Positions 8,035-64,000 of a stretch of 64,000 nt of DNA are shown piece after piece. The notes beneath the pieces were generated by a model, which ran no database searches, was not told where the DNA came from, and saw only the letters and a list, made by a program, of their open reading frames with translations. This DNA is from Orobanche coerulescens (lineage: Eukaryota; Streptophyta; Magnoliopsida; Lamiales; Orobanchaceae). The translations under genes and the position numbers were made by a program. The stretch lies in contig CM065814.1 in assembly GCA_033398695.1 (NCBI GenBank), positions 79,316,358 through 79,380,357 of the forward strand, written 5' to 3'. Every line of letters starts with the position of its first letter. The stretch's first letter is position 1.

Positions 8035-8036
8035 AT

Positions 8037-11457: not shown

Positions 11458-11462
11458 GTTCG

Positions 11463-31862: not shown

Positions 31863-32288
31863 TAGCGCACGCTACTATTGCTGTGTAGCGCACGCTAGAA
31901 CCGTTTACTAGCGCGTGATAACGGCTCGAACCCAGTAGTGACAGTGGGTTGTTTCTGCTCTCTGCTCTCTGGACGAGCAGCTTAGCGCATGCTACATTTA
32001 TATATTAGCGCACGCTACGGTTTGGATCTAGCGCACACTGGGGTGACCGGTACCGCGCGCTAACTCGGTAGTCTAGACTGGGCAAATTGTTTCTGGACTC
32101 GGTTTGGTGCCCAGGTAGCGCACGCTATGGCCCGATAGCATGCGCTATCGAAGGGTCGTTAGCGCATGCTATTCTTTAGTAGCACACGCTAACGGGCCAG
32201 AACCGTAGGTTCTGAATGGGTTTTTGGCTGGGTAGCGCACGTTAACTTTTATCGCTAGCGCACGCTACGTCTCTCTGGTTATAAAAAC
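31863..32288 (+). promoter_or_regulatory. AGCGCACGCTA motif array and TATA box, C 5' LTR
   Basis: Thirteen 12-bp sites of the TAGCGCACGCTA type, with starts at 31863, 31886, 31909; 31983, 32006, 32029, 32051; 32116, 32136, 32160, 32180; 32233, 32256. Six of the steps are exactly 23 bp or one off. TATAAAAA begins at 32280, 24 bp after the last start. Confidence 0.8.
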
Positions 32289-35066: not shown

Positions 35067-35079
35067 AGTTTACGAGATA

Positions 35080-35690: not shown

Positions 35691-36644
35691 CCGGGTGCAG
35701 CTCCAATTTCGAAGGCGCCGTATCGCATGGAACCTTCAGAGATGGCTAATTTGAGGAAGCAGTTGAATGAGCTTCTTGAGTCAGGGTATATTCGGCCGAG
35801 CGCTTCACCTTGAGGCGCACTGGTTCTGTTTGTGCGGAAGAAGGATGGTTCACTGCGTTTATGTATCGACTACCGCGAGCTAGACAAGGTGACCATCAAG
35901 AACAAGTATCCCTTGCCGAGGATTGATGACTTGTTTGATCAGTTGCAGGGAGCTGCGGTATTCTCGAAGATCGACTTGAGATCGAGATACTATCAGCTTC
36001 GGGTGAAGGAGTCTGATATTCTGAAAACAACTTTTCGGACGAGATACGGACATTATGAGTTTATGGTTATGCCCTTTGGGCTAACCAACACACCGGCAGT
36101 GTTCATGCAATTGATGAAAAAAGTTTTCATAGAGTATTTGGATAAGTGTGTCGTCGTCTTTATTGACGATATCCTTATCTATTCGAGGAATGAGAAGGAG
36201 CATGCGCATTATCTGCGTGTGGGGTTAGACATTTTGAGAATCGAGCGACTCTATGCGAAATTCCCGAAATGTGAGTTCTGGCTGAAGGAGGTGATGTTTC
36301 TGGGTCACGTAATTTCAATCGAGGGGGTCCGTGTGGATCCACAGAAGATTGAGGCAGTGTTGGATTGGGCGTTGTCTAAGAATGTGAAGGAGGTTCGTAG
36401 TTTCTTGGGTTTGGCTGGCTACTATCGTAGGTTCATCGAGGGGTTTTCAAAACTGGATTGGCCACTTACACAGTTGCTTCAGAAATCTGAGAAGTTCGTC
36501 TGGAATGACGAAAGACAGTCGAGTTTTGAGGAGCTGAAGAGGCGCTTGACTTTAGCCCCGATTTTAGCATTGTCGTGTGGCAACGAGGGTTTTACTATTT
36601 ATAATGATGCTTCGGGTCAGGGTCTTGGGTGTGTATTGATGTAG
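35690..36644 (+). pseudogene. C reverse transcriptase and start of RNase H
   Basis: From [17 protein letters not shown] a TGA replaces the Trp of the usual SPWGAPV block (about 35811); the frame then stays open from 35832. RT motifs: [31 protein letters not shown] and catalytic FIDDILIYS. RNase H begins with [13 protein letters not shown] and stops at TAG 36642-36644, where about a dozen residues normally following are also missing. Apart from these two lesions the RT is well preserved. Confidence 0.9.
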
Positions 36645-37160
36645 TTGAGGCCATATGAGCTCAACTACCCTACTCATGATTTGGAATTAGCGGCAGTTGT
36701 TTTTGCGCTCAAGATTTGGCGTCACTATCTTTTTGGCTCTGCATGTCAGATTTTTACCGATCATAAAAGTGTGAAGTACATATTCACTCAGCGGGAGTTG
36801 AATATGAGGCAAAGGAGGTGGTTAGAGTTGATTAAGGATTATGACCTCGAGATCCTTTATCATCCGGGCAGGGTGAACGTCGTGGCGGATGCCTTGAGTC
36901 GAAAACCGGTTGCGTTGCGGACGCTTGAGATCCTTACATCTCGGTCTGGGCTTCAGTGGGATTTGATTGAGTTGAGTGTTGAGATTTTGTTGCCAGGAGT
37001 TGTCGGGCAACTTTGTGCTTTGGAGATTTTGTCGTCATTCATCGATGAAATTAAACTGAAGCAGTTGGAAGATCCGATGATTACTCAAATCCGAGAGAAT
37101 GTTCTTAAGGGAAAGTCTCCTGGGTTTTTGATCCACGAGGACGGTGTATTGAGATTCTAG
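36645..37160 (+). pseudogene. C RNase H, remaining part
   Basis: Continues in frame after the [53 protein letters not shown] and [16 protein letters not shown], the end of RNase H in gypsy pol, then the variable linker to integrase. It ends at TAG 37158. Confidence 0.85.
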
Positions 37161-38466
37161 ATTCGTTTTTGTATACCGAATGACATGGCATTGAGGTAGA
37201 GTATTTTGCGTGAGGCCCATGCTACGCCTTACTCAGTTCATCCGAGTTCGAGTAAGATGTACAAGGACCTAAAGAGGAATTTTTTGTGGAACTTCATGAA
37301 GGAGGAGGTCACACAGTTTGTATCGAGATGTTTTACTTGTCAACAGGTCAAAATCGAGCATCAGCGACCGGCCGGGTTATTGCAGTCGCTTCCCGTTCTG
37401 GAATGGAAATGGGAAGATATCTCGATGGACTTCGTCACGAACTTGCCGAGATCAAAGTGTGGTATGAATATGGTTTGGGTGATTGTGGATCGTCTGACCA
37501 AGTCGGCACATTTTATGGGCATCAAGGATACCTGGGGTCCGGAAAGGTTGGCTCGTGTGTTTATTGCGCAGATTATGAGGCTTCACGGTACTCCGAAGTC
37601 TATTATTTCGGATCGTGATGGCTGTTTTGTATCGCATTTTTGGCAGGCGGTACATAAGGCGTTGGCTACTCGGTTGCGTTTGAGTACTTCTTTTCATCCT
37701 CAGTCAGATGGGCAGTCGGAACGCACTATCCAGACATTTGAGGATATGTTGTGTGCTTGTGCTCTCGATTGGAGCTGTAATTGGGAGGAGCATTTTCCGT
37801 TGATCGAATTCACGTATAATAATAGTTGGCATGCCTCGATTCGAATGGCACCATATGAGGTGCTTTATAGGCGGCAATGTCGATCGCCGATTTGCTGGAA
37901 CGAGGCATCCGGTTTGGTTGGGACCGAACTGGATATCGCTATGGAGACGAGGCAGAAGGTGGAATTGATTCGGGAGAGGATGTTGACTGCTCAGAGTCGA
38001 CAGAAGTCATATGCTGATGTCCGTCGTCGACCTTTGGAATTCGAGGTGGGAGACCACATTTTGCTAAAGGTGTCTCCGACGAGGGGAGTTTTCCGCTTTG
38101 GCAAGAAGGGAAAGTTGAGTCCGAGATTTATTGGGCCCTTTGAGATTCTCGAGAGAGTCGGCGAGTTGGCATATCGTTTGGCATTGCCTCCGGCCTTAAG
38201 TCACGTTCATAGCATTTCCCATGTTTCCCAGCTGAAGAAATATGTTACAGATCCTAGTCACGTCATCGACTATGGTGAGATTGATGTCGTCGAGGATATT
38301 ACCTTCGAAGAGCACCCCTTGAAGATTTTGGAGCACCATGAGAAGCGACTAAGGCAGAAGACCATTCCTGGTCAAGATGCAGTGGTCGAGGCATGATGTT
38401 GAGGAGGCAACTTGGGAAATCGAGGATAGCATGCGTGCTAGGTACCCCGAGTTGTTTGTTTCTTAA
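37161..38466 (+). pseudogene. C integrase
   Basis: The long frame 37206-38396 holds the HHCC domain (AHATPYSVHPSSSKMYKDL ... CFTC), the DDE core (MDFVTNLP; SDRDGCF; GQSERTIQ) and a C-terminal domain (FEVGDHILLKVSPTRGVFRF, GPFEILERVGELAYRLALPP, HVSQLKKYVTDPSHVI). The DDE triad is intact. A TAG upstream (37198) cuts it from RNase H, and a shift near 38385 puts the last block (HDVEEATWEIEDSMRARYPE) in another frame. This is the best-preserved domain in the window: 396 codons without a stop. Confidence 0.92.
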
Positions 38467-41020: not shown

Positions 41021-41243
41021 TAGCGCACGCTACTATTGTTGTGTAGTGCACGCTATCGTTGCTTTGTAGCACATGCTACTACTGTTTAGTAGCGCGCACT
41101 AACAGCTCGAACCCAGCAGTGACAGTGGGTTGTTTCTGCTTTCTGCTCTCTGGATGAGCAGCTTAGCGCACGCTACATTTATATATTAGCGCACGCTACG
41201 ATTTGGATTTAGCGCACGCTGGGGTGACCAGTAGCGCGAGCTA
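41021..41243 (+). promoter_or_regulatory. Motif array, C 3' LTR, first segment
   Basis: Eight sites in two runs of four. The first run steps by exactly 23 bp three times; the second by 23, 23 and 22. The 5' LTR has only three units in the first run. Confidence 0.8.
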
Positions 41244-41302
41244 ACTCGGTAGTCCAGACTGGGCAGACTGTTTCTGGACTCAGTCTGGTGCCCAGGTAGC
41301 AT

Positions 41303-43496
41303 TGTAACGCCCCCAAAATGAACCGGGACGCCACAGTGCCGTAGATCCCATGAGGGACCCACAAGGCAAGTTTCTAAAATATTTTATTTAAAAGTGGTAA
41401 TATACGGAAGTAATTAAGAAAGTATTCGTGCATCCCAAGTGTACAAATGCAAATAGTGTCCGTACATACGGTTATTACACAACGTGGAATGTTCAAATTT
41501 ATTTAAGAAATTAACAGGCCTTCTTTCAACACAGCTCACGCCTGGCCGTAACCTTCGGGGGTGTCCTGCACAAATTCAACAAATTTACAGCACGACATGT
41601 CGTGCCAGAACCTAGGTCGAAACAATCCCAACCTATCTCAAAAGTAAAATCTAATAATTTCCAGAATAAAGTTATCACCGAATGTTCCATGTTATTCCTT
41701 TTATCAGACATAAACTCCCAAGGTCGCAACCAAGGGTCACGGAAGTATCTACAGAATACTCCTGACGTGGGTACCATTCAGTTTTATCCGCAACACGGTC
41801 CAACAAGAAAACTCCCAAGGCGGCCAAGGGTCACGGTAGTATCTACTCGGGAATACTCCGGACAAAATAACCGTAATAGCACCATTCCACAATAGTAACA
41901 TTTACTATGTCTAAAATTATAGGACGTAAAGTCTGAGCAAGATTCACTTGCCTCAAATCCGACGCGAGTTATCTCCGGACAAGGCAACGGCTTGAACGAT
42001 CGCACTTGGAAATCCGACCTATTATATGTTTGTCGATTAACATCTCGTGATATTAATAATGATCACGACGTTCCTCCCCCTCCCGTATGTTAAAACCCTA
42101 TCCTAGTTGTTTATGATGTCGGAATCGAATTTCTCTATTTTTTTCCATAATGCGTGCCATTAAGTTCTTAGGTTCGGCAACATTCTCTATAAGTTATCCG
42201 TCCGCTAAACAATAGTGTTTTAACACAACATTCCTAGTTAATTATAACCGACAATCACCAATATTTCATCGTTGTCTTAATATGCAAGTCTAGAACGATT
42301 AATCCATCATTTTAACATGTTTCGGTATCTATTTAGCTAGAAATTGTTGGTAACTTCATCAAGGATTCATTGACGGTTTTGTTCAACATGATAGTATGGT
42401 TATATATGAAATCCTTCAAGATGATTCCGAGAAGTTTGTGATTAGCAATATGATTATGAGTTCTACCATTATTCATTCCAATTTCAAGCTTTGATGGATA
42501 TCGATTAACAATTGCGATAGCTATATACCGGTTCGATTATTACGGAGGGTTCTAAGCTACCCAAGGCATCCGAGGTTTACTAAAACTTACTAAACAATAC
42601 TGAAATGAGTTCAAGATTGAATAAACTTACCTTAATTGACAAAAGATGATGAATAACGACGGTGGACGAAGGAGAACGAGAAGATAACACCTTCAAGACC
42701 TTCCCCGAAGCTTGATTAACGCACTCTAATAGGATAACACTTGAATTGGGAGGCTAGAATTGGTTCAATGATGGTGGAGAGTAGTGTACAAGGAAGAGGG
42801 ATGATGTTTGGGACGGGAGAAATGAAAGGCAAGGTGTTCTTTTATAAACTTAAGTTGCCCTTACGTACGTTATGCCTCACGACACGCACGTAAGAGGCTT
42901 TACGTACGTTATGGCAAAATACTTAACGTACGTAAGGAACTCACTGGAACGATTCACCCACATCGTTACGTACGTAACGAAAACGGGTTTACGTACGTAA
43001 CACCTCGTTGACTTGCCTGTCGCAATCACGCCGAAAGTTGGTCGGCACGCGTACTACCGGACGAAGATTCCTATCCGAAGACCGAAGACCGTTGTTACGT
43101 ACGTAAGGGCCAACATATAACGTACGTAATGGCTCAGACATAGCGTACGTAACGGGTCGGAGTATAACGTACGTAAAGGATAGTTTTGTTTGTCAAATTA
43201 TCATCTCATTAAATTATTATGACACGACTCCCTCTCCATGTTGTCCGGAAATCTCTCGGGGAACAAGACGTTGGCCACCGTCATATTCGCACCGATAATT
43301 ACCTAACGACATCGAGGTATGTCACTGAAAGTGCGTCAATCATCATGCCATCACAATACACGAATAATAGATACGATGCCGTACAACCATATTATACAGA
43401 ATATGTTCTATTGCAATGGAGTACATTTATTTATCAAACAGGAAAAATAGACGTGAGCGCCCAAAGTAAAAAGCATGTAATACTGGTGGTATTACA
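41303..43496 (-). mobile_element. Element K: solo gypsy-type LTR, minus strand
   Basis: TGTAACGCCCCC...GTATTACA, 2,194 bp, with exact AGCAT duplications at 41298-41302 and 43497-43501. Read on the minus strand it ends with a GTGGGTCCCTCATGGGATCTACG block like the U5 end of C, which sets the orientation. A minus-strand TATA box lies at 42841-42846, with a TTACGTACGTAA array upstream. The small ORFs inside have no family signature. Confidence 0.85.
42841..43176 (-). promoter_or_regulatory. TTACGTACGTAA array and TATA box of K
   Basis: Sites start (+ strand) at 42861, 42882, 42900, 42924; 42966, 42989; 43095, 43118, 43141, 43165. Steps of exactly 23 bp occur at 42966-42989, 43095-43118 and 43118-43141. 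The motif is a perfect palindrome in most copies. The TATA box (TTTATA on +) is at 42841-42846, downstream of the array on the minus strand. Confidence 0.75.
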
Positions 43497-45078
43497 AGCA
43501 TGCTATGGACCGATAGCGCGCGATATCGAGAGGTTATTAGCACACGCTATTCTCTAGTACAGCACGCTAACGGGCCAAAACCGTAGGTTTTGGATGGGTT
43601 TTTGGCTGGGTAGTGCACGCTAACTCTTATCGTTAGCGCACGCTACGTCTCTCGGGTTACAAAAACCAGAGAGTTGACCAGATTCATCATTTTTTTCTCA
43701 TCTCCTTTCCCCTCCGCGGTCGAGCGACTCCAAGGAGATTTGGGGCGATTTCTTCTTCCAATCACTTCAGAGATCATTTTTCCTTGAGTTCTTGGTGTGG
43801 ATTAACAACACCAACACTTGTTCTTCATCCTTAATCCAAGGTATTCTCCTAGAACCCTATTTTTGGAAAATTTGGGGGTTTTTGAGTTTCGTCCTATTCG
43901 TTCCGTATTGTTGATTAATCCATGATGTATATGATTAATCTTAGTGGTATTCTTGTTTTTCCTACGTTTCATGGTAAGTTTCGTGGTATTTGTGAAATCG
44001 AGAGGGTTTAGTTGCGCTCTGTCCTCGTCATTGTTTTGTACGAACTTAAATGAATCATAGGTGGGGTTTCGGGTGTCTTCCGTTATTGTTATTCTTGTCG
44101 AATTGGTTGTGATGGTGTTTAACGAATCATCTAGGTTCGGTGTGTCCAATTTCTCGCAACCACGATTGTAACATTTCGTCCTTTCGTTCTGATAATCGAG
44201 GCAAGTACCCTTAATGAACTTACATGCTTAACATGGTTGTATTGCATTAGTAACATGTGTGTGTATGCTCACTACGGGTTTGCTCCGACGGGGTCTTGGT
44301 AGGGGTCCACAAAGGTGTGGATCCACGAGCTTGCTTTTAACCACTACGGGTTAGATCCAACGGGGTCTCGGTAGGGGTCCACAGAGGCGTGGGTCCGTGA
44401 TTAATTGTGGTGCATTTTGTAAATTCGTTTTGGGTTATGGCGTTTCCGGAAAAGTGTGTTTCAAACTGATGCTTTCTCATTTGCATTCTTTGACTATATG
44501 TGTAAGGTGTAAGTTGTTCATTGGTTACTTCTACTAGCATAATTGCTAACCCTTTGGGGACCCGTTTTGGGGAAATTCTTGTTATGAATTCCAGGTCATG
44601 TTCAGCTGGATGATCGGGCACTGGGACAGTACGAGGATGCTGGCCAGGGTTGATGACGTGTGCAACTGAGTCTCTTTAGTTCCGTTGTCCTTTTTAATGT
44701 GGATTATTTTCTTTAGACTTGTGAACTTATAGAAGGTACTCGCGAGTACTTAGACATTTCTACTGGGATTATGGTTTGTATTATTATATATTGTTTATGA
44801 TTGTCAATGATGTTGGTTTTGCCGGTTATACCGGGAGTTCCATTTATTTTTGTTCTGGTGATGCGTGTTTCCTCGCTAACTAAGATAGTTAGACGAGTGG
44901 TATTTTTTAATTAGCATGGTGGGTCCCATATAGGGGTACACGGTGCTGTAATATTCCCTGAATATCTTGGGGGTGTTACAGTGAGCTTCGGTTTGGTAAT
45001 TTGTTGTCGTATCGTGATATTTCGATCGTTCGGAACATAAACAGTCCAGAGGCTACTGGACTGGGTTGGAACGTTGAT

Positions 45079-45338
45079 TGGCGCACTCTATGTAGTGGTA
45101 TAGTGCACACTAGGGTGCAGTTGTAGCGCACGCTATGGTGAGGATAGCGCACGCTAACTGGGAGTTCGGGGCAGTCCAGGAGCTACTGAACTCGATCTGG
45201 AGGTCTCGTTAGCGCACGCCAACACTTGTGGTTAGCGCATTCTAACAATGTGTTTTCGACATGAAGTTTTGTTTCGGTGCCTCGACAACGCACGATAATC
45301 ATAATGATTAGCGCACGCTAAGCTGTCCAGTATATAAA
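45079..45338 (+). promoter_or_regulatory. Motif array and TATA box, B 5' LTR
   Basis: Sites start at 45079, 45101, 45124, 45145, 45210, 45233, 45286 and 45309; three steps are exactly 23 bp. TATATAAA starts at 45331, 22 bp after the last site. Confidence 0.78.
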
Positions 45339-49015: not shown

Positions 49016-50066
49016 ATGCCAAGAGGCAGAGGTCATGGTCGTGGCGACCAGATGCGTGGTCAGGATCATGCTGTCGGTGATGGTGTTGGTATCAGTGTTG
49101 CTACTATTTTACTGCAGGTAGCTGCACAGATGACTCAGTTGACTCAAGCAGTTCAATGTAATACAGATGTGACCCAGAACATTAGTGCAAATCAGTGGCT
49201 ACGAGAAGTGATTCAGATGAATCCATCTCATTTTGCTGGTGCTGCAGATGCATTGGGCCGGGAACATTGGCTTAGTATCTTCTCGACAAGGATGGGAAAG
49301 ATATTTGATGTGGTTGACTGTCCAGAAGAACGTAAGGTGCCAGTAGCTCAGTATCTTCTCGACAAGGATGCCGCTAACTAGTGGGAGGATGTTAAGCCTC
49401 GGGATCGTGTTGTCATGTGGGCAGAGTTCCAGGGATTCATGAGAGATGAGTTTTGTCCTAAATCGATCAGAAAGCAGAGGCTTAATGAATTCTTTTCGGT
49501 GAGGCCGCAAGATGTACCACTGTCTCAATCTATTATTGATTATAGCAAACAACTCGGCTACATGCAGGATCAGGTAAGCATAAAGGAAGATAAGATCTGT
49601 CATTTTAGTAGGCGAGTGAAGCCGGAGAATCATTAGTACATGGCGGGTCTCACTTGTACTTCATTGAGAGAGTATCATAATAGGGCGTTAGCCTACGAAC
49701 TATCTATAACATCGAATGAGCATATGTCTGAACCGAAGAAACAGAAAACAGTTGGGAACTTTTCAGGAAATCAGGGAAGTGGGCTCCCTGGGGCTGGGAC
49801 TTCGTGTCGTCATCCTAAGAAGGTTTCTCGATCGCGTGCGTGAACAGAGGAAGAGTATTACCCCTGCAGTGAGTAATGTGAGCAGCACGAAGATGTGTTA
49901 TAACTGTAGTCGAGCGGGCAATACCGTGAAGAATTGTCATTCACCGTTAGTCAGCTGTTTCGAGTGTGTCCAAGTGGGTCACCGAGCCGTGCATTGCGAG
50001 ATGGTAGCTGAGATATTTGGAGATCGAGTTTGCGTATCTGCTCTGAAAGGACACGGAGATGCCTAG
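49016..50066 (+). pseudogene. B gag
   Basis: ATG 49016 starts a Gly/Arg-rich MPRGRGHGRG, then a capsid part homologous to C gag: FAGAADALGREHW, EERKVPVAQYLLDKDAAN, WAEFQGFMRDEFCP and CHFSRRVKPE. A TAG at 49379 replaces the expected Trp codon, and another lies at 49634. After a frame change near 49715-49840 come two knuckles, CYNCSRAGNTVKNC (His missing) and CFECVQVGHRAVHC (complete). Length is close to C gag. This is the only coding region in B. Confidence 0.82.
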
Positions 50067-50370
50067 TGTGGTTTTCAAGGATTTCTGCGTGGTTGGAGTT
50101 CTTCGTGGTTACCCTCACGGACCGTTGTGTGCTTAATTTCTATTTTTTGACTGTGCGTGTTTTCTGGTGATAGGTACCTGTTGTTTTGTGATTGTTCGGA
50201 TAATTGACTTGATTGTGCTATTTGTTTGGTGATACTTGACACTTGTTGGTTTTATTATGTCTCTGCTTGTGACATTCTGATGGTTGTCGTCGAGTGTGAT
50301 TTCATGCCGTATGTTCTTTGCGTTGCTTGTAACGTTTCGCTGACGGGAACTTCTTTTAAGGAGGATAGTT
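50067..50370 (+). other. B sequence between gag and 3' LTR
   Basis: About 300 bp, no gene. It ends in TTTTAAGGAGGATAGTT, the presumed polypurine tract. All of pol is missing at this junction. Confidence 0.65.
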
Positions 50371-50784
50371 TTTAATATCCGCAATTTTAATTTTCGGTAA
50401 ATTTATTTTTTGGCAGGAGTCCGTTTTAACGGATCTTTTTAACCATTTTGTCATTTTGAGAATGATTAATTTTTGTCATTCGAGTTTGTCATGGTGTCGT
50501 TTGTTGAGTTCCGTGCTTCTTAGCGACTTTTCCGTGCTTGAGATTGATTCTTGCGAATCTTGTTCGAAACTGCTGTTTCATGTTCCTTCAAATTTTGTTT
50601 AACTTTGTTAGACGTATTGTGAGCTTCGGTTTGGTTATTCGTTGTCGTATCGTGATATTTCGGTCGTTCGGGCCATTTTGTAATTTCCCAAAGTCTTGGG
50701 GAACTTATTTCGTATTCCTCACTTCGACCTTTTTGGAGTGTCGTTATGAGTTTTGGTGCGATCCTACTGCCTGTGCACTAGGAA

Positions 50785-51153
50785 TAGCGCAAGCTATGGG
50801 CTAGATATAGCGCGCGCTACTTGAGATTGCTAGCGCACGCTAAGACTAGTTAGCGCATGCTAACTGGAGGTGCAGAAATAGTCCAGAGGCTACTGGACTC
50901 GGTTGGAACGTTGATTGGCGCATGCTATGTAGTGGTATAGCGCGCGCTAGGGTGTAGTAGTGGCTCACGCTATGGTGAGGATAGCGCACGCTAACTGGGA
51001 GTTCGGGGGCACTCTAGGAGCTACTGGACTCGATCTGGAGGTCTCGTTAGCACACGTTAACAGTGTGTTTTGGACATGAAGTTTTGTTTCGGTGCCTCGA
51101 TAACGCACGATAATCGTAATGATTAGCGCATGCTAAGCTGTCCAGTATATAAA
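50785..51153 (+). promoter_or_regulatory. Motif array and TATA box, B 3' LTR
   Basis: Sites start at 50785, 50808, 50831, 50851; 50916, 50938, 50961, 50982; 51048; 51101, 51124. Steps of exactly 23 bp occur four times. TATATAAA starts at 51146, 22 bp after the last site. Confidence 0.8.
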
Positions 51154-52774
51154 CTGGACAACAGTCGTGAATTATCATTTCCACTTCATTTCTTCTCCTC
51201 TCCATGGGATTGAGTCAAGGGCGACTAGGGTTCGTTGTCTTGGACGATTTTGTTCCATTCCAAGGTGTTTTGGGGAGTTCTAGGTGATTGTAACATCATC
51301 TAATCCGTTGTTCGTCATCGGATCAAGGTATTTTTTCCATTTCCCCTAGAGTTGACTTTTGGGAGTTTTGTTCTTGATCTCGATCCTAGTCCGATTTTGA
51401 TGAATTAGCTGGTTCTATATGATGTTGTTAATCGTGTTCTATGGATTGTGTATCAATATTTCAAGTTCATTTAACTCGATTGACGATTTGAGTGTTCTTG
51501 GGAATTATTGAACATTTAATGTTCGATTAAATGTTTCAATGAGTTTCCTTTGATGTTTTGAGGTGATTTCCGTTATTATTGGTCTAGATCCTCGTTTTGA
51601 TAGTGTTCTCATTGTTTCTTGCGGTAGTTGTAGGTTTTGGGGCACTTCGGTCGAGCCGTGTTCGTCGGAGTATTCGTGTGCCGGTTTCGAGGCAAGTACC
51701 TTGTTCATACATTTCTTTTTTGTGGATATAATGATCGGTGATCATCTAAGTGTGTTCGTTTGGTTGTTTGAAATGAACTTTCAAAAGATTCGCTTAAGCC
51801 TCATTATAGGCTCACTTTCAAAATGCGTGTGCATTTGTGAATGGTGTGTTTGTAAATGATTAAGTGAATCCTATGGATATGTTTGGTGTTGATGTTGTGC
51901 TTTGATAATGCATATATACATATATTACCTCATTTCGGTGCGTTGTGATTTGAGTTTGTGTCGTGCTAAGTTTTTGTTGCCTCTAGGTGAATTATTAGGA
52001 TATCCTTGGTGTACTGTGTTAAGTGGTGTGAATGTGTGTGGTCATAGTCTAGCCGTGAAGCTGGGCGAGGTCTACGGTGACACATGGCTTGTGATCATGT
52101 GATCAGGATGCAACAAGTGATTGATCCAACCGTGAGAGCCTAAGAAAACTATGGTGACACATGACTTGTGATCGTGTGGTCAGGATGCAACAAGTGATTG
52201 ATCCAACCATGAGATCCTAAGAAAACTACGGTGACAAATGACTTGTGATCGTGTGGTCAGGATGCAACAAGTGATTAATCCAACCGTGAGAGCTTAAGAA
52301 AACTACCGTGACACAACTTATGATCATGTGGTCAGGGTGCAACAAGTGATTGATCCAACCATGAGAAACTGATGACCCATGGCAAGCAATCACGGTGTCA
52401 TGGATATGATTGTGGATGTATTTTTGCCAGGGTTGAGTACATTGGACGTGTTACCGAGATTTCATATCTTGGGTGGTTATGGTTTATTGATTTTACGTCT
52501 ATCGAGGACACGTGGTGTGGGTTGTGTACCCCTTGAATTACTGTTGGTTTTATTTGAGAAAGCAGATCTTTGGGCTGTGACCCCTTTTGGTTTTTGATAG
52601 AGAAGGATTCGATAATCCTAAATTGTTTTCTATTAAAACTCCCGAGGGCATTTTAAAATATTTTATAAATTGTCCTCTTGATTTGTGATCTTTCGAATTT
52701 GAAAAGTTTTATTCAAACTCTTTGCCTCGGGAAGTATTTTTTTGTCGTTATGTTTGAATCTTTGAGGATTTCTG

Positions 52775-52775
<1 letters not shown>

Positions 52776-52816
<41 letters not shown>
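52776..52816. repeat. (ATT)n microsatellite
   Basis: About thirteen ATT units in B's 3' LTR; the partner LTR has only a few (near 46958). Confidence 0.9.
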
Positions 52817-53281
52817 GGAATATGATTTGTATGACTCGTATTTGCACTTTGTACTTGCACTAGCAAAATAGTGGAGTTTTGCTAACTCCCGAGTAATCGG
52901 GGGCTGGTTGTCTGTATTGCATTCAGGTACGTGCAGGGCCTTGGGGAGCATAACACAGGGTTGGCACGAAGGATGATGAATGATGATCGATTCTAATCAC
53001 ATGAGGACCTGTACATTGATGTATTGGTTTAGTTGTAGTTATTTCCTCTGCAGTATTATCCCCATTGTACGGAAGCGTGTTGTATTTTGACCCCTGTGTG
53101 GGTATGTATTGAGACTGAGTTGTATTTATTAAATAAAAATACCTAATCGGTCTACTGGGTCGTCATTTAGCCTTGAAGGCGATATTTTGATATTTGATTT
53201 TAGTTACCACCCTGGTAGATCCTTGAGGAAAGGGGCTACAGCGTGTAATATCCCTGAGAGGATTGGCAGTGTTACAGTATG

Positions 53282-54042: not shown

Positions 54043-54766
54043 AAGGGTATGTTACGATCTGAGAAAACTTCAGCCTAAGGTTTATCATAATCAAGGCTCA
54101 ACTCATACATGTCTAAATCAAGGTATACCTTATGTTTAATCATCTCAACCTTCCTAAAATCATGGTGTTCAGTAATTATGTCGTCAATGGAGTCTAATAG
54201 TCTCTAAAATGCATTCGTAATCATCCTAGAAATATGAACTCAGAGATGGAGCAACATTAACATATCTTACACGGAGGAAAACAATGAAACAATCGATAGA
54301 ACTCGACACCGAAAGCTTCAACACCAATCCAAGATGCCTATGATTTTAAAAATCAAGTTGAGGGGCTTATTTAGAGGTTATGTAAGGTTGGAAGGTCTGA
54401 GAGATGGGTAGAGTTCGGACAAGACGAGTGAATGAAATGAAATAGGTGAAGTAACAATTAATGTATGCTATCCCTAATTCTTAGCGTATGCTAACAGGTT
54501 ATGAAGCTTCACTGCCTCAATCTGCCTTCAGTCTTGCGTACGCTATCAGACATTACGTACACTACCTACTGCCTTTAACGTATGTTAACTCATAGTATAA
54601 CGTACGCTAACGATTTTATGAACCTTACTGCATCTTTCTGTCCTAGCATTAGCGTATATTAACTACATTACATAGTGTACGCTAAACACCATTGACTTCA
54701 CTTTTCCAAGAAGTTTCCAGGTTCATGCAAGAGAAATCCGTCCGCATCTTCGTCCTGCCCCACACG
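54043..54766 (-). mobile_element. Element E: LTR part 3 (U3)
   Basis: The upstream part of the minus-strand LTR. It contains a motif array at 54459-54684. No gene. It ends at ACACG (54762-54766), where D begins; E's outer edge must lie beyond D, outside the window. Confidence 0.6.
54459..54684 (-). promoter_or_regulatory. Motif array of LTR E
   Basis: Degenerate TAGCGTACGCTA-type sites start at 54459, 54482; 54534, 54553, 54576, 54598; 54650, 54673. Three steps are exactly 23 bp. A weak minus-strand TATA-like CTAAATAAG lies about 90 bp away at about 54370. Confidence 0.65.
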
Positions 54767-55041
54767 TGTAATATCCGGAATTTCTACTACCGTTGTTTAA
54801 TATTATTTTATCCGAGTTATATTGTACAGCGTGGAATCTGTACAGTATAGATAAAATAAATGAAGGACTGAGATGTCAGTATCGGTATAATTGTCGTACT
54901 TGGTCGACAATTGCAATTGAGGATATTATGTATCATATGAGAATATTATGGAATTAAGTATATATATTCAGTGCGTGAGTGTACGTATCCAGTATGTCGA
55001 GACAGACGAGAAGAGTTGGAAATGGCTAAGTATAGCCTGAC

Positions 55042-55555
55042 TAGCGCGCTAATGGTCAAGTATAGCGCACGCTATCGTTCATGGTTAGCGCACGCTAGAG
55101 GCAGAATGTAGCGCACGCTAGTGCAGTCAGATCAGAAGGAATCTACGTGTGGACCAGGCCACTTTCGGCGCACGTTCTGGTAAGTCAACGGATGTTGTAA
55201 TGTAGTGTTAGCGCACGCTAATGCATGATGGTTAGCGCACGCTAACTGTATATCGGACAAGAAGGAATCTTATCCTCGTTAGCACTTTCGGCGTGTGGAC
55301 CAGTCTTCGGAGCATACAGACAATCAAGTCAACTATGATTAGCGCACGCTATGGAAGAACACTTGCGTACGCTAAATATAGGCATTTACTTACGCTAAGG
55401 CATGGGCATTACGTACGTAAGTCATTGTACGAAGCCAGACAGTAGCCTCTGGATTGCGATAGCGCACGCTAACAAAAGTCAGTTAACGCATGCTAAGGCC
55501 GTAGCGCACGCTAAACATAAGGTTTAGCGCACGCTAGTAATACACTTTATAAAAA
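55042..55555 (+). promoter_or_regulatory. 23-bp-phased motif array and TATA box, D 5' LTR
   Basis: Sites start at 55042, 55063, 55086, 55109; 55209, 55233; 55340, 55363, 55386, 55409; 55460, 55484, 55502, 55525. The run 55340-55409 has three exact 23-bp steps although its motifs drift from TAGCGCACGCTA to TTACGTACGTAA. TATAAAAA starts at 55548, exactly 23 bp after the last site. Confidence 0.85.
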
Positions 55556-56219
55556 GGGACAGGAGAGTGTTATGAAGCATTTCGTCCACTTCTTTCCTTT
55601 CACTCGATAGAGAGAGCCCTGGGAGGTACTCGAGTACGAAACACGAGAGATGATGATCTTTAACAAGATTAAGCTGGGGATCATGAATTAAAGTCTTGTT
55701 CTTGAAGTTATTGATGATTCTTGGAATGAAGTGATTGTTCTCCTTCATGGTTCGTCTATACAAGGTAATAGTTCTTCACCTTTGGATTTCGTTTTGGATT
55801 GAAGATTGATGTTCTTGTGTTAATGATTATCATATAAACAAGTTGATAAGTATGATTATGAGATTGGTTACCGAGTTATGAGTATTGATATGATTTGGAT
55901 GGTTTCGAATGTGTTGTTTATCTTCAAAGAGATATGTTGGCCAATGTCTTCCTTGATTCGGATCTTTGATGTTGTTGTTGTTGGTTTCTTCATATGATGG
56001 TGATCATGGCATGATTATGAGTTCTTGGTATTTAGGTTGTTGATATTAAGGAAGATGAAATATGAATATATGACTTGAATTAAGAGTCGGATGATTACCT
56101 ATATGTTAAAAGATATTGGATTTCGTTGTTTGATAGCTATGTACATGGTTCAGAATCACTTAGTGTTCTTGATAATCGTCATATGTTGATCGAGATCCGA
56201 AATACATGCAATCTGACAT

Positions 56220-56301
56220 TAGCGCACGCTAAGCTTACTGCCTAACGCGCGCTAACGGGAGCAACTTAGCGTACGCTACGTTAAGTGACTAACGTGCGCT
56301 A
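56220..56301 (+). promoter_or_regulatory. Second motif array, D 5' LTR, in the transcribed part
   Basis: Four sites at 56220, 56243, 56267 and 56290 (steps 23, 24, 23), about 670 bp downstream of the TATA box. The 3' LTR has the same cluster from 62085. Confidence 0.8.
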
Positions 56302-57067
56302 AAAAGGCAGAAAGTGCCGTATGTTCGTGTAGTGGTTATGAATTCGGGCGGGTTTGAGTTGGATTGATCCGACTAGTTTTTAACTGAGATATTGTTGAGC
56401 CGTTGGGTTTGTGAATTGGTTTTAACGGTTGCTGATTATTATCGGATTGTTGTTTAATCGATTATTGTAATAGGTCAAGTTTATTGATCGGTGTTTATAA
56501 CCGTATGATGCGGTCGTGTTCAAGGATGTTCGTGAATTGCTTTGGTCGGGACCGAGGAACTTGTAGATGACGACAATGGATTTGGTAACGACTTCATCAT
56601 CGTCGTATCGGTATCGAGGTAAGTTATTACTTGCTCGATTCATAATATTTAATGAATGGTTTCCGTTTCATTCGTGTATAATTCGTATAGCAATGTTTAT
56701 AATCGTAATCACAGGAGATTTGAGATTATAAATCGTATTCGAGTTTTGGGAATCTAAATCATAATGTATATGATTTACTTTTGTTATTGGTATACTTGTA
56801 TATCGAGGATATATTGTGATAAAGACGAAGATATGAATTATCTGCAATCCGTGATACTTTGGACCGTCGAGTATTGAGGATAATGGTTCGTGATAGTTTA
56901 GACATTGAGATCGTTCTCGAAGGACTCGGGGCAAGTACTCTAATCATTTTTATTATTTGTGTCGATCATGTCGTGATACATTCGTGTATCGTTGTTGTCA
57001 TGCATTTGTGCATTGTTGTTGTCGTGTATTGTGTACTGTTGTTTTGTGCAGTTGTGCATTGTTGTCA

Positions 57068-57210
57068 TATGTCCACCTCGGGTTGGTCCGACGGGATCAT
57101 CGGGGGATCTATGCTAGCGTGCACTGGATCATCGGACGGGTTTTCCACCTCGGGTTGGTCTGACGGGATCATCGGGGGATCTAGGCAGTGAACGCTGGAT
57201 TATCGGATTG
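57068..57210 (+). repeat. Two hairpin repeats in D 5' LTR
   Basis: Two copies of CCACCTCGGGTTGGTC(C/T)GACGGG. Stems: 57086-57091 with 57132-57137 (GTCCGA/TCGGAC) and 57158-57163 with 57203-57208 (GTCTGA/TCGGAT, two wobble pairs). Homologous to the E repeats at 3085-3215. Confidence 0.65.
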
Positions 57211-58221
57211 CCATGTATTGTTGTTGTGCATATGTATATTATGGGTTTGCCATAAGTATACATTGTCGTTATTGTTGTGATCATATTGACGTTGTCATAT
57301 GAGTATGCATTTGTAGGTCTTGTATTAGGACCATGTCCGTATATTGTGTTGATCTGATCTCGGATTAGACTGACGTGATGGTAATGGTATTTCGTATCTT
57401 GAGGTATGTTCCGTATTTCCTTGGTACTTGTCTTTGATGGACAATAATTATCGTATTGGAATTGTCGGCGTTATCAAGCCCAGTTGAATTGGCGAGTTGG
57501 TATAATTTCCGTATCGCGAGTTATGATAATGTTTTGAGAACCTTGAGTATTGTTGAGATACCGCATGTATATTTCGGTATTATCTTAATGTGTTGTTAAG
57601 GATACGAATCGTGGATTCTCGTAAAGTTACAACGGTAAGATTACATTGGTCGTATTCTTACTTAGTATTTCCATTGATATGTAATTATTGACGAGATGTG
57701 ATGGTTATCATTGTTGGATATTATGGTGACCCCGTCGTGGGCTTTCTTTTAGGTTCTTGGATTATCAAGCTTGTAGCGGTCGTGGAGAGATGAACTTCTC
57801 GGAGGATACGGCTAGGACATGTATTTGTGTATTGAGTTTCGATCGGTTGTTGTATTTCCATTGTTAGAGTATTTTAAATTGTTTGTCTTTTCCATTGCGT
57901 GAGTATTTTTAAATGGCCTTTGGTATCGGTAACTTAGGTCACTTTGGCAATCGTTTTCTAAATTTATTAAGCCGATGCGTGTAAGCAATAGCTTAACGTA
58001 TGTTTTTAAAGCTGTTGAGTTTTGGCATTCGGGCCTTGTGGTTTCAAATGAGATTTTTACGGTTTGTTAAACGTATTTTATTGAGTCTTCAAATATTTTT
58101 AAAAGATCACAAGTCGTTAGCCTCTTGGGCATTGATAAATGTTTGCGAAAATTTCCTTGATCTTGTGGGTTCCATCTCGGGGCCACGGCTGTAATATTCC
58201 GGTCGGATCGGGGTCTTACGA

Positions 58222-60623
58222 ATATGGTATAAGAGCTTAGGTTGTGAAAACCTAGGCGGTCGGGTCGAGTTAGGTCGTGCTTACGCGTGTCATTTGAGTT
58301 GTCGGTTGACAAGTGTTTGAGCTAGGTTTTTGTTGTTCACTCGGGCTTGTGCGTTATGTGATTTACCGGTGTAGTCTTGGGATTGTTGTAACTTTTTCAA
58401 ATGGTGTAAACGTGTTTCTTCAGATAGAGCTGTGTTGTTTTCTCGAGTTGAACTGAGATTGCAAAATGCGTGTTTTGAAAATATCTGTGTCGAGAATTTT
58501 CTAGAGTCGAGACATGTGCCGAGATCACGGGGAATTGTCGGCTTCACGATCTGTAAGTATTTGGATTTTTGAATTGCATTGAGATTTATTGCCATTCTAA
58601 GTTGATATGTTTTGAGATTCAGAAAGATATTATGCGGTACAGTATAAGGTGACAGAGTTGGGACAGGATTTATGATCTTGAGAAGTTATGATTTTGGAAA
58701 TTAATATGTCGATTAAGTTTTGGAACAGAGTTTTGCATTTGGGAGAAATATTGTGGATTGTTCAGGAGAACATGTAGTCATGTTAGTTCATCTTGAGATA
58801 TATGAACTGTTTTTTGAGCATTTGAAAATGATACTTTTCAACATGAATGTTTTGCAGATGTTTTACTGTAAATGATTTTGGGCCGAGACCCAATAGATTT
58901 TTGAAATTGTTTTATAACTCAGGACTTGGGGTCCGAAAAAGAGTTTCCTACTTTTAAACTTCTTGTAATGCGGAACGAGATACGGGCTGAGACCCTGATA
59001 TTTCAAAAGACTTTTCTGTTTTCTTAAAAAACTCCCGAGACTTGTAAAACACTTTATCAATCGTTTATCTATGTCGTTCCTGCCTTTCGGGGTTCTGGAT
59101 TACTTGTTCAAAAGAAACTTCTCGGGAAGTCTTTCGCTGTGTTGATTTGTTTCAATGCATTGTCATAGCATAATTGAGGTGATCCAGGATGGAAAATGAT
59201 TGACGTTGCGAGTCATATGTGGAAAAGGAGTTTTTAGGCGGAGTTTATATATTGAAAATTTCGGAACTTTATCGTGTGGTTTTCCGATGGGATAGCGAAC
59301 CGAATTGGCATACAGTAATATGGATGTAGTCCAGCATTTGCATAGTTTTCATTTGAAACTTTGAAATCGTGTAGAATCGAAGGAAACTGTTATCGAATAC
59401 TTGGCACCAGTGAGCCGATTTAATTTTTTCGAAAATTGATTTCGTGGACTTAACGAAATTTATGTTTTGAGTTTTGAAATTTTTGAAAGAACTTTCGAAA
59501 ATGTGTCTCCTTGACAAGATTATATGATTTCAAACTGGTTTTGAAAATGTGATTGATGTACATACGCATTTAGTACATCGGGCATATCATATCGAGGGTA
59601 CAAGGAAAAGAGATTCGAACTTTAGTATGGCAGTTTGATTATCCGGTGATGATCGGTTGAGTTATCGGATAAGAGAAATATGTTGCGTGTTGTAGATTCA
59701 TGCACATAATATTATTTTGGAAACTTGGGATATTGTGAAACCGGAACATATGTACTACGTGATTCCATTGGTGCGGTAGTAGCGCAATTTTAACATAGTG
59801 ATCTTTGAATGATTTCTTTGTAAGTGTAAATTTGGGGATGGTGACCCCATGTTGGTTGTTTTGGATATTGAGTGGTCGTTCCCACTCCTTGTATGAATTG
59901 GTATCTTCGTCGATTTGCGATTCGTTGTTCGTATGCCGAGGGGAAAGTTCACCAGTCGGTTGTGTTTCGTTGAGATCCACTGTATGTGATTGGTGTGTCG
60001 TTTTGAGAACTCTATATCGGTTACTGTGGTTCTGCGTTGATCGTGTTGGAGCTTATCGTGTGAAGGTATTCTTGATTACCGTTAATTGTTCGTTGGTAAT
60101 AATAGGAGTTTATCATGTTGATGATATTCTCGACTGCGTTTTGACCTTTAGATTGGTCGTATCGGAGGATATCGTGTCGATGATACTCTCGGTTAATTTA
60201 TTGGTTGATCATTGTTAATGATCATATGAGCGTTCAGATTTTGTGTCGATATTTCGGAATTTGTTGGGCTGTTGTTTCACAGATGTATCGTGTATTATTC
60301 ATTTTATCAGAATTGAGACTGGATTGTGTAATCAGACAAACATAATTGAAACAGATAGATTATTTCATCCGAAGATGTTATGTTTTGATGGGACTCATGA
60401 AATGATGACCGTAAGCGTGTTGAGACTTTACAGAGGAGTCACTTGCTAGGATCTCAGGAGATCGTCGACTTTGCGCATTTGTAAGTATCTTTATTTGATT
60501 ATTCGTTAGTGATGACGATCGATCGTCGTGATGGTTTCGGAATATCTTGGTGAGCGGTTTGTTTGTTTTTTACGTGACGGGTTGCAAGTTTCGAGGACGA
60601 AACTTATTTTAAGTGGTGTAGTA
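58222..60623 (+). other. D internal region, noncoding
   Basis: The primer site TGGTATAAGAGCTTAGG starts at 58225. In 2.4 kb I see no frame with gag, protease, RT or integrase signatures; the longest ones (for example 59805-60218) look like chance. It ends in GAGGACGAAACTTATTTTAAGTGGTGTAGTA, read here as the gypsy 3' signature with a weakened polypurine tract. Confidence 0.75.
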
Positions 60624-63600
60624 TGTAATATCCGAATTTCTACTACGTTGTTTAATATTATTTTATCAAGGTTATATTGTACAGCGTGGAATCTGTACAG
60701 TATAGATAAAATAAATGAAGGACTGAGATGTCAGTATCAGTATAATTGTCGTACTTGGTCGACAATTGCAATTGAGGATATTATGTATCATATGAGAATA
60801 TTATGGAATTAAGTATATATATTCAGTGCGTGAGTGTACGTATCCAGTATGTCGAGACAGACGAGAAGAGTTGGAAATGGCTAAGTATAGCCTGACTAGC
60901 GCGCGCTAATGGTCAAGTATAGCGCACGCTATCGTTCATGGTTAGCGCACGCTAGAGGCAGAATGTAGCGCACGCTAGTGCAGTCAGATCAGAAGGAATC
61001 TACGTGTGGACCAAGCCACTTTCGGCGCACGTTCTGGTAAGTCAACGGATGTTGTAATGTAGTGTTAGCGCACGCTAATGCATGATGGTTAGCGCACGCT
61101 AACTGTATATCGGACAAGAAGGAATCTTATCCTCGTCAGCACTTTCGGCGTGTGGACCAGTCTTCGGAGCATACAGACAATCAAGTCAACTATGATTAGC
61201 GCACGCTATGGAAGAACACTTGCGTACGCTAAATATAGGCATTTACGTACGCTAAGGCATGGGCATTACGTACGTAAGTCATTGTACGAAGCCAGACAGT
61301 AGCCTCTGGATTGCGATAGCGCACGCTAACAAAAGTCGGTTAACGCACGCTAAGGCCGTAGCGCACGCTAAACATAGGGTTTAGCGCACGCTAGTAATAC
61401 ACTTTATAAAAAGGGACAGGAGGGTGTTATGAAGCATTTCGTCTACTTCTTTCCTTTCACTCGATAGAGAGGGCCCTGGGAGGTACTCGAGGTACAGAAA
61501 CACTGAGAGATGATGATCTTTAACAAGATTAAGCTGGGGATCATGAATTAAAGTCTTGTTCTTGAAGTTATTGATGATTCTTGGAATGAAGTGATTGTTC
61601 TCCTTCATGGTTCGTCTATACAAGGTAATAGTTCTTCACCTTTGGATTTCGTTTTGGATTGAAGATTGATGTTCTTGTGTTAATGATTATCATATAAACA
61701 AGTTGATAAGTATGATTATGAGATTGGTTACCGAGTTATGAGTATTGATATGATTTGGATGGTTTCGAATGTGTTGTTTATCTTCAAAGAGATATGTTGG
61801 CCAATGTCTTCCTTCAATTCGGATCTTTGATGTTGTTGTTGTTGGTTTCTTCATATGATGGTGATCATGGCATGATTATGAGTTCTTGGTATTTAGGTTG
61901 TTGATATTAAGGAAGATGAAATATGAATATATGACTTGAATTAAGAGTCGGATGATTACCTATATGTTAAAAGATATTGGATTTCGTTGTTTGATAGCTA
62001 TGTACATGGTTCAGAATCACTTAGTGTTCTTGATAATCGTCATATGTTGATCAGTATCCGAAATACATGCAATCAGACAAAGATTAGCGCACGCTAAGCT
62101 TCTTGCCTAACGCGCGCTAACGGGAGCAACTTAGCGTACGCTACGTTAAGTGACTAACGTGCGCTAAAAGCGCGAAAGTGCGATTTTCGTGTTGTGGTTA
62201 TGAATTCGTCCGGTTTGAGTTGGATTGATCCGACTAGTTTTTAATCGAGATATTGTTGAGCCGTTGGGTTTGTGAATTGGTTTTAACGGTTGCTGATTAT
62301 TATCGGATTGTTGTTTAATCGATTATTGTAATAGGTCAAGTTTATTGATCGGTGTTTATAACCGTATGATGCGGTCGTGTTCGAGGATGTTCGTGAATTG
62401 CTTTGGTCGGGACCGAGGAACTTGTAGATGACGACAATGGATTTGGTAACGACTTCATCATCGTCGTATCGGTATCGAGGTAAGTTATTACTTGCTCAGT
62501 TCATAATATTTAATGAATGGTTTCCGTTTCATTCGTGTATAATTCGTATAGCAATGTTTATAATCATAATCACAGGAGATTTGAGATTATAAATCGTATT
62601 CGAGTTTTGGGAATCTAAATCATAATGTATATGATTTACTTTTGTTATTGGTATACTTGTATATCGAGAATATATTGTGATAAAGACGAAGATATGAATT
62701 ATCGCAATCCGTGATACTTTGGACCGCCGAGTATTGAGGATAATGGTTCGTGATGGTTTAGACATTGAGATCGTTCTCGAAGGACTCGGGCAAGTACTCT
62801 AATCATTTTTATTATTTGTGTCGATCATGTCGTGATATATTCGTGTATCGTTGTTGTCATGCATTAGTGCATTGATGTTGACGTGTAAAGTGTAAAGATG
62901 TTTTGTTCATTTGTGCATTGTTGTCATATGTCCACCTCGTGTTGGTCCGACGGGATCATCGGGGATCTATGCTAGCGTCTACTGGATCATCGGACGGGTT
63001 TTCCACCTCGGGTTGGTCCGACGGATCATCGGGGATCTAGGCGATGAACGCTGGATTATCGGATTGCCATGTATTGTTGTTGTGCATATGTATATTATGG
63101 GTTTGCCATAAGTATACATTGTCGTTATTGTTGTGATCATATTGACGTTGTCATATGAGTATGCATTTGTAGGTCTTGTGTTAGGACCATGTCCGTATAT
63201 TGTGTTGATCTGATCTCGGATTAGACTGACGTGATGGTAATGGTATTTCGTATCTTGAGGTATGTTCCGTATTTCCTTGGTACTGGTCTTTGATGGACAA
63301 TAATTATCGTATTGGAATTGTCGACGTTATCCGACGGATTGAATTGGCCAGAGTTGGTATAATTTCCGTATCGCGAGTTATGATAATGTTTTGAGAACCT
63401 TGAGTATTGTTGAGATACCGTACAGATATTTCGGTATTATCTTAATGTGTTGTTAAGGATACGAATCGTGGATTCTCGTAAAGTTACAACGGTAAGATTA
63501 CATTGGTCGTATTCTTACTTAGTATTTCCATTGATATGTAATTATTGACGAGATGTGATGGTTATCATTGTTGGATATTATGGCTGACCCCGTCGTGGGC

Positions 63601-64000
63601 TTTCTTTTTAGGTTCTTGGATTATCAAGCTTGTAGCGGTCGTGGAGAGATGAACTTCTCGGAGGATACTGGCTAGGACATGTATTTGTGTATTGAGTTTC
63701 TGATCAGTTGTTGTATTTCCGCTGTTAGAGTATTTTAAATTGTTTGTCTTTTTCCGCTGCGTGAGTATTTTTAAATGGCCTTTGGTATCTGGTAACTTAG
63801 GTCACTTTGGCAATCGTTTTCTAAATTTATTCTGTCGGTACGTGTAAGCAATAGCTTAACGTATGTTTTTAAACTGTTGAGTTTTGGCATTCGGGCCTTG
63901 TGGTTTCAAATGAGATTTTACGACGGTTTGTTAAACGTATTTTATTGAGTCTTCAAATATTTTTAAAAGACAGTACCGTCGTTAGCCTCTTGGGCATTGA
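60624..64000 (+). repeat. D 3' LTR (cut by window end)
   Basis: Matches the 5' LTR from its first base; 3,377 bp are visible, and roughly 100 bp are missing at the end. Motif array from 60897 (60897, 60920, 60943 and 60966 are exactly 23 bp apart), TATA box at 61405, second array from 62085. Confidence 0.88.

Follow-up and report, generated by a model that had tools for sequence, protein, structure and literature searches.

The LTR palindromes of maize Sireviruses, treated by Bousios in 2016, reportedly lie in the cis-region of the LTR, evolve fast and have been read in terms of small-RNA targeting. For the Sireviruses, which are Ty1/copia elements, an earlier paper describes repeated motifs as palindromic, CpG-rich CG boxes that are present in at least eight copies per element and are mostly concentrated in the LTR's upper half, ahead of the TATA box (Bousios 2010, PMC2829016). 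By that account, near-identical boxes occur in otherwise dissimilar LTRs, the motifs are Sirevirus-specific and absent from classic Ty1/copia elements, 12 of the 13 repeated motifs in the paper's table have the core CGG-CCG, and the boxes form CpG islands (PMC2829016). The target arrays of VANC in VANDAL transposons, as far as the cited parts of their description go, consist of same-orientation copies of a short motif in non-coding parts; these copies diverge together, and the motif differs between related families (PMC5735166). NAC factors are described as recognising TTNCGT[G/A] or the core CGT[G/A] (PMC4081100). Judged by titles, the literature apart from the Sirevirus paper gave no report of palindromic promoter arrays in gypsy/chromovirus LTRs or of NAC factors with LTRs, and searches with exact 12-mers (four words) returned unrelated work.

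A preliminary description of one array of 12-bp quasi-palindromic sites had no name for the arrangement, which can at least be set beside its closest described kind, the Sirevirus repeated motif (PMC2829016). Arrays of this sort look like a shared landing platform for a regulatory protein, common to the promoters of many different jumping genes, and we consider it fairly probable that they form a platform of many binding sites close to the promoter, in the U3 of Ty3/gypsy LTRs of chromovirus type.

Arrays in five LTR families of the window

The window, by which we mean the whole analysed stretch of 64,000 nucleotides (64 kb), is a nest of LTR retrotransposons, and five different LTR families in it, called X, C, D, S and E here, carry arrays. 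With up to two mismatches allowed, the window holds 140 matches to the site versus 49 +/- 7 after shuffling (0 of 100 shuffles reach 140), and all 61 exact TWRCGYRCGYWA matches in the 64 kb lie inside the arrays X, C, D, S and E and a second cluster of D.

The 5' LTR of D (54767..58220, forward strand) starts with TGTAATATCC, is followed by the PBS-like TGGTATAAGAGC at about 58225 and has 96.6% identity to 60624-64000. Its U3 array (55042..55536, forward strand) had been credited with 14 sites, and the site starts given for it, 55063-55086-55109, 55340-55363-55386-55409 and 55502-55525, are exact. Thirteen of the sites have at most one mismatch to TWRCGYRCGYWA; the fourteenth, at 55042, is shortened by 2 bp, and its counterpart at 60897 in the 3' LTR (60624..64000, forward strand, continuing beyond the window end) is full-length. 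TATAAAA follows the 5' array 11 bp past the last site (55548..55554, forward strand), and the 3' U3 array (60897..61393, forward strand; 14 sites) is followed by TATAAAA at 61405. The second cluster of D (56220..56301, forward strand) has four sites at steps of 23, 24 and 23 bp about 670 bp downstream of the TATA box, and a site scan places it at 62085..62166 (forward strand) in the 3' LTR.

Element X (31325-44980) is nested within the 5' LTR of C, which it splits with the TSD GTGAG, and two nested insertions lie in its own 3' LTR. The X 5' array (31863..32267, forward strand) has 13 sites with up to two mismatches and TATAAAA 12 bp past the last, and the X 3' array (41021..43645, forward strand) is broken up by the solo LTR S and reads TTACAAAA at the TATA position. 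In C, the 5' array (45079..45320, forward strand) has eight and the 3' array (50785..51135, forward strand) 11 sites with up to two mismatches, both with TATATAAA 10 bp past the last site; the C 3' LTR spans 50366..53277 (forward strand, ends approximate). The array of the solo LTR S (42861..43176, reverse strand; LTR about 41303-43496) has 10 sites of the TWACGTACGTWA dialect and TATAAAA 14 bp past the last (42846-42840). Array E (54459..54684, reverse strand; eight sites with up to two mismatches), which sits in the repeat that received the D insertion, is without TATA[AT]A and was oriented by its step order (52, 23). A sixth LTR at about 18941-21579, by its ends a C-related solo LTR, has no array, and its U3 beside the TATA box consists of CGGCC-rich inverted repeats; an array is thus not obligatory.

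Some further features of the nest may be recorded. The insertion of the solo LTR S (41298-43501, TSD AGCAT) lies within an array site of X itself; for plant LTR elements, though not for Tekay, the cited part of one paper describes a weak preference for insertion into palindromes (PMC6911290). The C LTRs contain a 77-bp minisatellite of about four copies downstream of the TATA box (46254-46554; 52072-52366), and at 3424-11460 two near-identical overlapping segments with a period of about 3.4 kb resemble a tandem LTR-internal-LTR-internal-LTR arrangement.

Abundance in the genome

Exact words were counted on both strands of the 3.65-Gb genome to which the window belongs (3,646,015,169 bases), with words of reversed letters as controls. 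TAGCGCACGCTA occurs 1,017,744 times (510,633 + 507,111 by strand) and the backwards-read word 56 times (23 + 33); TTACGTACGTAA has 170,680 places genome-wide and its control 255. Exact pairs at the 23-bp step number 131,744 (66,333 + 65,411) and those at the 22-bp step 5,532 (2,800 + 2,732), each with a control count of 0, which is a ratio of 24:1; pairs at 24 bp, counted with the final base of the second site unconstrained, are also common (78,131; 39,087 + 39,044). The 23-bp peak to be looked for elsewhere, according to the preliminary description, is therefore present genome-wide, and the scale of the arrays is far beyond what was observed in a single window. The viral and prokaryote sequence collections gave no exact 23-bp pairs.

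The material beside the window came from the same one genome and comprised 20 stretches of 10 kb at round-number fixed positions (200 kb) and eight 3-kb loci taken from the first genome matches. Arrays were found in eight of the 20 stretches (L010, L013, L015, L019, L021, L022, L023 and L025), in which all 161 exact sites of the sample are clustered, each with at least three further matches within 250 bp, and 57 of 145 adjacent exact gaps are 23 bp. At L010 (2136-2700 and 7363-7900), TTACGTACGTAA sites are interleaved with a second short repeat of CGGCCA type, which is repeated alone in a 166-bp gap. For the analyses below, 23 array segments (5 from the window and 18 from loci) were reduced to 13 groups with no alignment once the sites were masked (BLAST E 1e-4), and one representative of each was used.

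A million-copy motif that crosses families, with no lone exact site in 200 kb, might also be seen if a host repressor or chromatin protein read the arrays to silence the elements, the copies being a target of host defence. Elements would then be expected to lose sites, yet abundant families share and multiply them beside the TATA box, and we hold this account to be very improbable.

Position beside the TATA box and polarity of the site

TATA[AT]A starts 10-14 bp past one array end in 7 of the 13 groups and past the other end in none (0/13), versus a background of 0.93% per position and strand for offsets of 9-15 bp; where present, it also served to orient the array. Counted by segment, 14 of 23 have it at 10-14 bp from the last site and one more at 18 bp, with none within 40 bp of the other end; in six of the 13 groups neither array end has TATA[AT]A within 40 bp. 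A TATA box is present in six of seven window LTR copies checked, the exception being the 3' copy of X. The location in the LTR U3 that was originally assigned to the array of D is thus confirmed, and can be narrowed to the stretch directly upstream of TATA. The TATA boxes of X and C lie within inverted repeats, for example CTGTCCAG-TATATAAA-CTGGACAG (32268-32300; 45321-45345; 51136-51165).

The commonest site has the centre CA, read in sense within TATA-oriented arrays of the main dialect, and where neighbouring sites have CA or TG centres, their orientations agree in 51 cases and are opposite in three (14 representatives). The site is therefore polar and not a true palindrome. This bears on the suggestion, made for the palindromes of maize Sireviruses, that such quasi-palindromes act as RNA or single-strand structures, for example at a transcript 3' end or as a small-RNA signal. 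The RNA of the D 3' array does fold better than 100 shuffles (z -4.25), and maize copia LTR palindromes are described as small-RNA hotspots in the cited part of one study (PMC5311732). A near-palindrome array is expected to fold well whatever its role, however, the CA centre of the commonest site would mispair in stems between neighbours, whose orientations do not alternate, and pairing needs no step exact to 1 bp, yet pairs fall 24-fold from 23 to 22 bp. We judge a hairpin role to be quite improbable. For a binding platform, a polar site would mean a preferred direction of reading, and if the polarity is real, few TAGCGCACGCTA-N11-TAGCGTGCGCTA pairs are expected in the genome.

Conserved motif and step, nearly free spacers

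With one copy of each array kind in the window (60 sites, 54 gaps), a gap of exactly 23 bp occurs 24 times versus 1.5 expected by random placement (0 of 20,000 draws), and over the 13 group representatives 57 of 139 gaps are 23 bp; the recurrence of starts at this distance, first seen in D, thus holds in both sets. Across the 13 groups, information per column is 0.92-2.24 bits in the 12 columns of the motif and 0.02-0.14 bits in the 11 of the spacer (null 99% level 0.143), so that spacers are not as conserved as motifs. The first spacer base is marginally over this level in the window set (0.15 vs 0.143 bits), and among the first 100 genome pairs listed at 23 bp, which all come from the beginning of contig C1 and have 64 different spacers, grouped into 33 clusters, it is alone among spacer positions in being biased, with A or C in 30 of 33 clusters. 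Identity of the 23-bp units in the 13 groups is 0.83 for the motif and 0.32 for the spacer within arrays, and 0.75 and 0.26 between arrays. The impression that site and step look selected and the spacer nearly free is borne out by this contrast in information, in the window as in the 13 groups.

The further claim that spacers have no common sequence stands for their columns, at or below the null 99% level in the 13 groups, and needs qualification for their pairwise likeness. In the larger set, spacers are slightly more alike than shuffles both within arrays (0.321 vs 0.276 +/- 0.012, 0/500) and between them (0.261 vs 0.253, p 0.008), and in the window alone the likeness is not significant (within 0.285 vs 0.275, p 0.30; between 0.269 vs 0.257, p 0.07). 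This slight likeness shows that local duplication contributed to building the arrays. Nor are the groups fully independent: among the five window arrays, similarity with sites masked is far above shuffles for D-S and nominally so for D-E (p 0.0125) and X-E (p 0.0375), and the other 7 of 10 pairs are not above shuffles.

Copies resident in the genome are not protected, since in the LTR pairs of X and C the motif differs by 0.128 and 0.131 versus 0.094 and 0.086 for the rest; selection, if any, would thus act on active lineages only. The columns that differ most between LTR pairs are the CpG columns. The array of D differs at 6 of 495 columns between LTRs (55042-55536 vs 60897-61393) versus 88 of 2,861 for the rest of the LTR, motif and spacer alike. 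Observed/expected CpG is 1.19-2.14 in the arrays, 0.23-1.25 in motif-masked arrays and 0.99 in the window, and it is equally high in the D LTR outside the array (1.42-1.48).

Were the arrays decayed 23-bp minisatellites, tandem duplication would have made them and the motif would be their slowest-decaying part. Tandem Repeats Finder does report short 23-bp arrays with 71-88% matches, and the shared orientation of neighbours and the slight likeness of spacers within arrays point the same way. The contrast between motif and spacer identity within arrays argues against it, as does the CpG content of the motif, which should make it decay faster and not slower, given that CpG columns differ most between LTR pairs. 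Moreover, motif and step are found again in each of 13 groups between which nothing aligns beyond the motif, and many sites of one array differ together when D is compared with S. The minisatellite account is already strained and appears unlikely to us, and the binding platform remains the preferred reading.

Two dialects and the symmetry of the half-sites

The majority of arrays have TAGCGCACGCTA and others TWACGTACGTWA, and 149 of 160 sites match the majority dialect of their own array versus 101.6 +/- 3.1 when permuted; array E is mixed, with five of eight sites in its majority dialect. D and S, which differ in dialect, are related: the module AGGAATCT ... ACTTTCGGCG ... AAGTCAAC in the first long gap of D (55137..55189, forward strand) is common to the second long gap (55263..55333, forward strand, by local alignment) and to S, and these modules, which contain AGGAATCT, CTTTCGGCG and AAGTCAAC, give local alignment scores of 36-45, far beyond the about 17.7 +/- 3.6 of shuffled sequence. 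A W-box-like word [AG]GTCAA is present in each of the two D modules and in the single S module. When ten corresponding D and S sites are paired by order, T1, C4, G5, C8 and G9 are kept in 10 of 10, agreement at positions 3, 6 and 10 is only 3, 2 and 2 of 10, and the short spacers between them are at chance identity (0.47 vs 0.50); two of the D sites with S counterparts retain S-like letters.

The two-fold (dimeric) recognition envisaged in the preliminary description is upheld in part. From one array kind to another, the symmetric positions 2/11 (p 0.009) and 3/10 (p 0.0004) change jointly (total p 0.0014), which favours it; within array kinds there is no co-variation of symmetric positions (total p 0.77), and this, the CA centre and the polarity of the sites do not.

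Array architecture and helical phase

Sites occur in blocks of two to four, mostly at steps of 18-24 bp with a mode of 23, and longer gaps separate the blocks. Terminal steps are 52-54 and 23 in X, C, E and the L013 group, and 51, 23-24, 18 and 23 in D, L021 and L022, with S similar (42, 24, 18, 21). In this D-type class the steps agree and spacer identity is no higher than chance (p 0.135-0.545 in six pairwise comparisons). Absolute site positions did not match above a gap-permuted null in ten comparisons between family pairs (lowest p 0.064).

Among long gaps, of 30-135 bp, there is a period of about 10.5-10.8 bp, with R at 10.5 of 0.38, 0.48 and 0.50 for 0, 1 and 2 mismatches; the p values, 0.0034 to below 0.0001 under a uniform null, 0.0062 or less with distinct gap values only and, when the period is scanned, 0.036 for exact sites and below 0.001 for 1 and 2 mismatches, are optimistic because of shared ancestry. 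The phase of these gaps is 1.8, 1.3 and 0.7 (0, 1 and 2 mismatches) vs 2.0 for 23 bp.

Placement of the sites on a similar face of the DNA, as had been proposed from the 23-bp step, is not upheld: with 10.5 bp to the turn a 23-bp step makes 2.19 turns, and in most arrays, 10 of 13, R at 10.5 bp is below 0.5, so that their sites do not share a single helical phase. This phase, taken array by array, rules out a single helical face for all sites. The helical relation that tends to be preserved is that between neighbours, with the long gaps near the phase of 23.

Carrier elements

Carriers with readable genes, X and the element at L013, are Ty3/gypsy elements. The pol frames of X (35814..38396, forward strand) encode RVT_1 (RT), RNase H and an integrase with H2C2 and SH3_Tf2-1 domains, and the domain scan detected no chromodomain of X's own. 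Among 120 listed relatives of the X integrase, those named by species are from plants, with dicots making up nearly all, and it is from these that we take the genome to be a plant's; one relative bears the name Ty3-gypsy, and PF00385 is present in several. The L013 element has an array in each LTR and encodes gag (Ty3_capsid), protease, RT and RNase H-integrase-SH3 followed by a weak Chromo match (E 0.0034, under the cut-off), that is, the Ty3/gypsy pol order with a C-terminal chromodomain, if this sub-threshold match is accepted. The carriers probably belong to the Tekay/Del-type chromoviruses; for C, S and E, LTR ends or the PPT, and these solely, suggest the chromovirus-type group. The short internal regions of D (58221-60623) and C (47429-50365) gave no retrotransposon domain in the four ORFs scanned, and both thus look non-autonomous.

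Beyond gag-pol, ORFs of at least 130 aa in L013 comprise only a 178-aa frame overlapping gag, and frames of at least 90 aa in X are gag-pol and overlapping frames only; L019 has a frame of 163 aa. These contents bear on the idea of an anti-silencing platform like that of VANDAL/VANC, in which the array would recruit a methylation-removing factor rather than a direct activator. The VANC21 targets, in the cited part of their description, are likewise arrays of motifs that share one orientation, lie in non-coding parts of the element and change in concert (PMC5735166), and same orientation and array-wide dialects are observed in the LTR arrays here. VANC is, however, encoded by the element, X and the fairly intact L013 element show only gag-pol and overlapping frames, and a host factor or a gag-pol product would be required instead; we find such an anti-silencing role rather improbable.

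A proposed promoter-proximal binding platform

Present by observation are the sites, their step, polarity, position and copy number, the two dialects, and the shared use of the sites by LTR groups that show no alignment elsewhere. The grammar of the sites, their proximity to TATA and their re-use by dissimilar LTRs fit a transcriptional platform for a polar factor with two half-sites and contacts between neighbours. From the sequence we infer a protein binder, cooperativity, activation and control by methylation. The 12-mer would be the predicted target of a single factor, which would recognise its two CG-containing half-sites (T-W-R-C-G-Y / R-C-G-Y-W-A) with a preferred direction. Adjacent bound units would be in contact at a fixed step of 23-24 bp, in blocks of two to four, and as longer gaps tend to hold the same helical relation, the blocks could perhaps pack together. 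The platform, ending 10-14 bp before TATA, most likely raises transcription of the retrotransposon. Two CpGs in every site make methylation gating plausible, with cytosine methylation as the putative natural off switch.

A NAC factor may be considered as the binder. All 10 sites of S contain TTNCGT[G/A], as do 3 of the 14 in D and 2 of the 8 in E; none of the 13 sites of X, the 11 of C or the 4 in the second cluster of D does, so the sites overall do not follow the NAC consensus. The core CGT[A/G] is present in 46 of 60 sites, and column shuffling gives 47.8 +/- 2.0; CG centres without a CGT core number 22, vs 21.3 predicted under independence. Since X and C are without TTNCGT[G/A], CGT[A/G] has no excess above shuffles and core-less centres are at the number expected under independence, a NAC factor is kept only as a possibility, a weakly supported candidate. 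Among bZIP, SBP and BZR cores, we know of none that fits both dialects.

Relationship to described systems and implications

We tentatively suggest, going beyond the binding platform itself, that one sequence-specific factor of the plant may have considerably more than a million potential sites, nearly all of them in U3 promoters of chromovirus families that compete with one another. These families would keep a grammar, consisting of the 12-mer, its polarity, the 23-24 bp step, phased gaps and an end 10-14 bp before TATA, while their surroundings turn over and whole arrays are switched between two dialects. If so, retrotransposon lineages would be following or splitting a binding specificity in concert, and the genome itself would be a sink for the factor, gated by CpG methylation. 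With about one exact site per 3.6 kb, this would permit a direct test of how a factor is shared between the genes of a genome and its million transposon sites, and of how promoter specificity can shift in retrotransposon families with their architecture conserved.

The sites resemble those of NAC factors in that TTNCGT[G/A] matches the TTACGTACGTAA dialect on both strands; they differ in that the main dialect is without TTNCGT[G/A] and the half-sites are fused, not arranged as CGT-N7/8-ACG. VANDAL elements are not counted among the LTR retrotransposons, and the likeness of the LTR arrays here to VANC arrays lies in their one orientation and concerted change. The binder of VANC arrays is encoded by the element, whereas none was seen in X and L013 beyond gag-pol and overlapping frames, and the cited part of the VANC work reports no link to TATA and no 23-bp step (PMC5735166).

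The palindromes of maize Sireviruses share with our arrays a location in the LTR cis-region and fast evolution, and differ in belonging to copia elements. As for the Sirevirus repeated motif, at least eight palindromic boxes upstream of TATA are likewise found here in X (13), C (11), D (14) and S (10; up to two mismatches), with TATA 10-14 bp downstream, and E has eight without TATA[AT]A. Both systems also have boxes that are almost the same in LTRs of little other likeness. However, the carriers here are Ty3/gypsy elements, judged by the domains of X and L013, and not Ty1/copia Sireviruses, and the core is CG-YR-CG and not CGG-CCG; the arrays are thus not a member of the Sirevirus repeated motifs but a parallel to them. 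A fixed step, polarity and the switching of dialects are found here, and none of these is described for the Sirevirus motif in the part of that paper drawn on (PMC2829016). Through the arrays, a motif type of copia Sireviruses would be extended to gypsy elements that abound in a large plant genome, with a grammar that can be measured.
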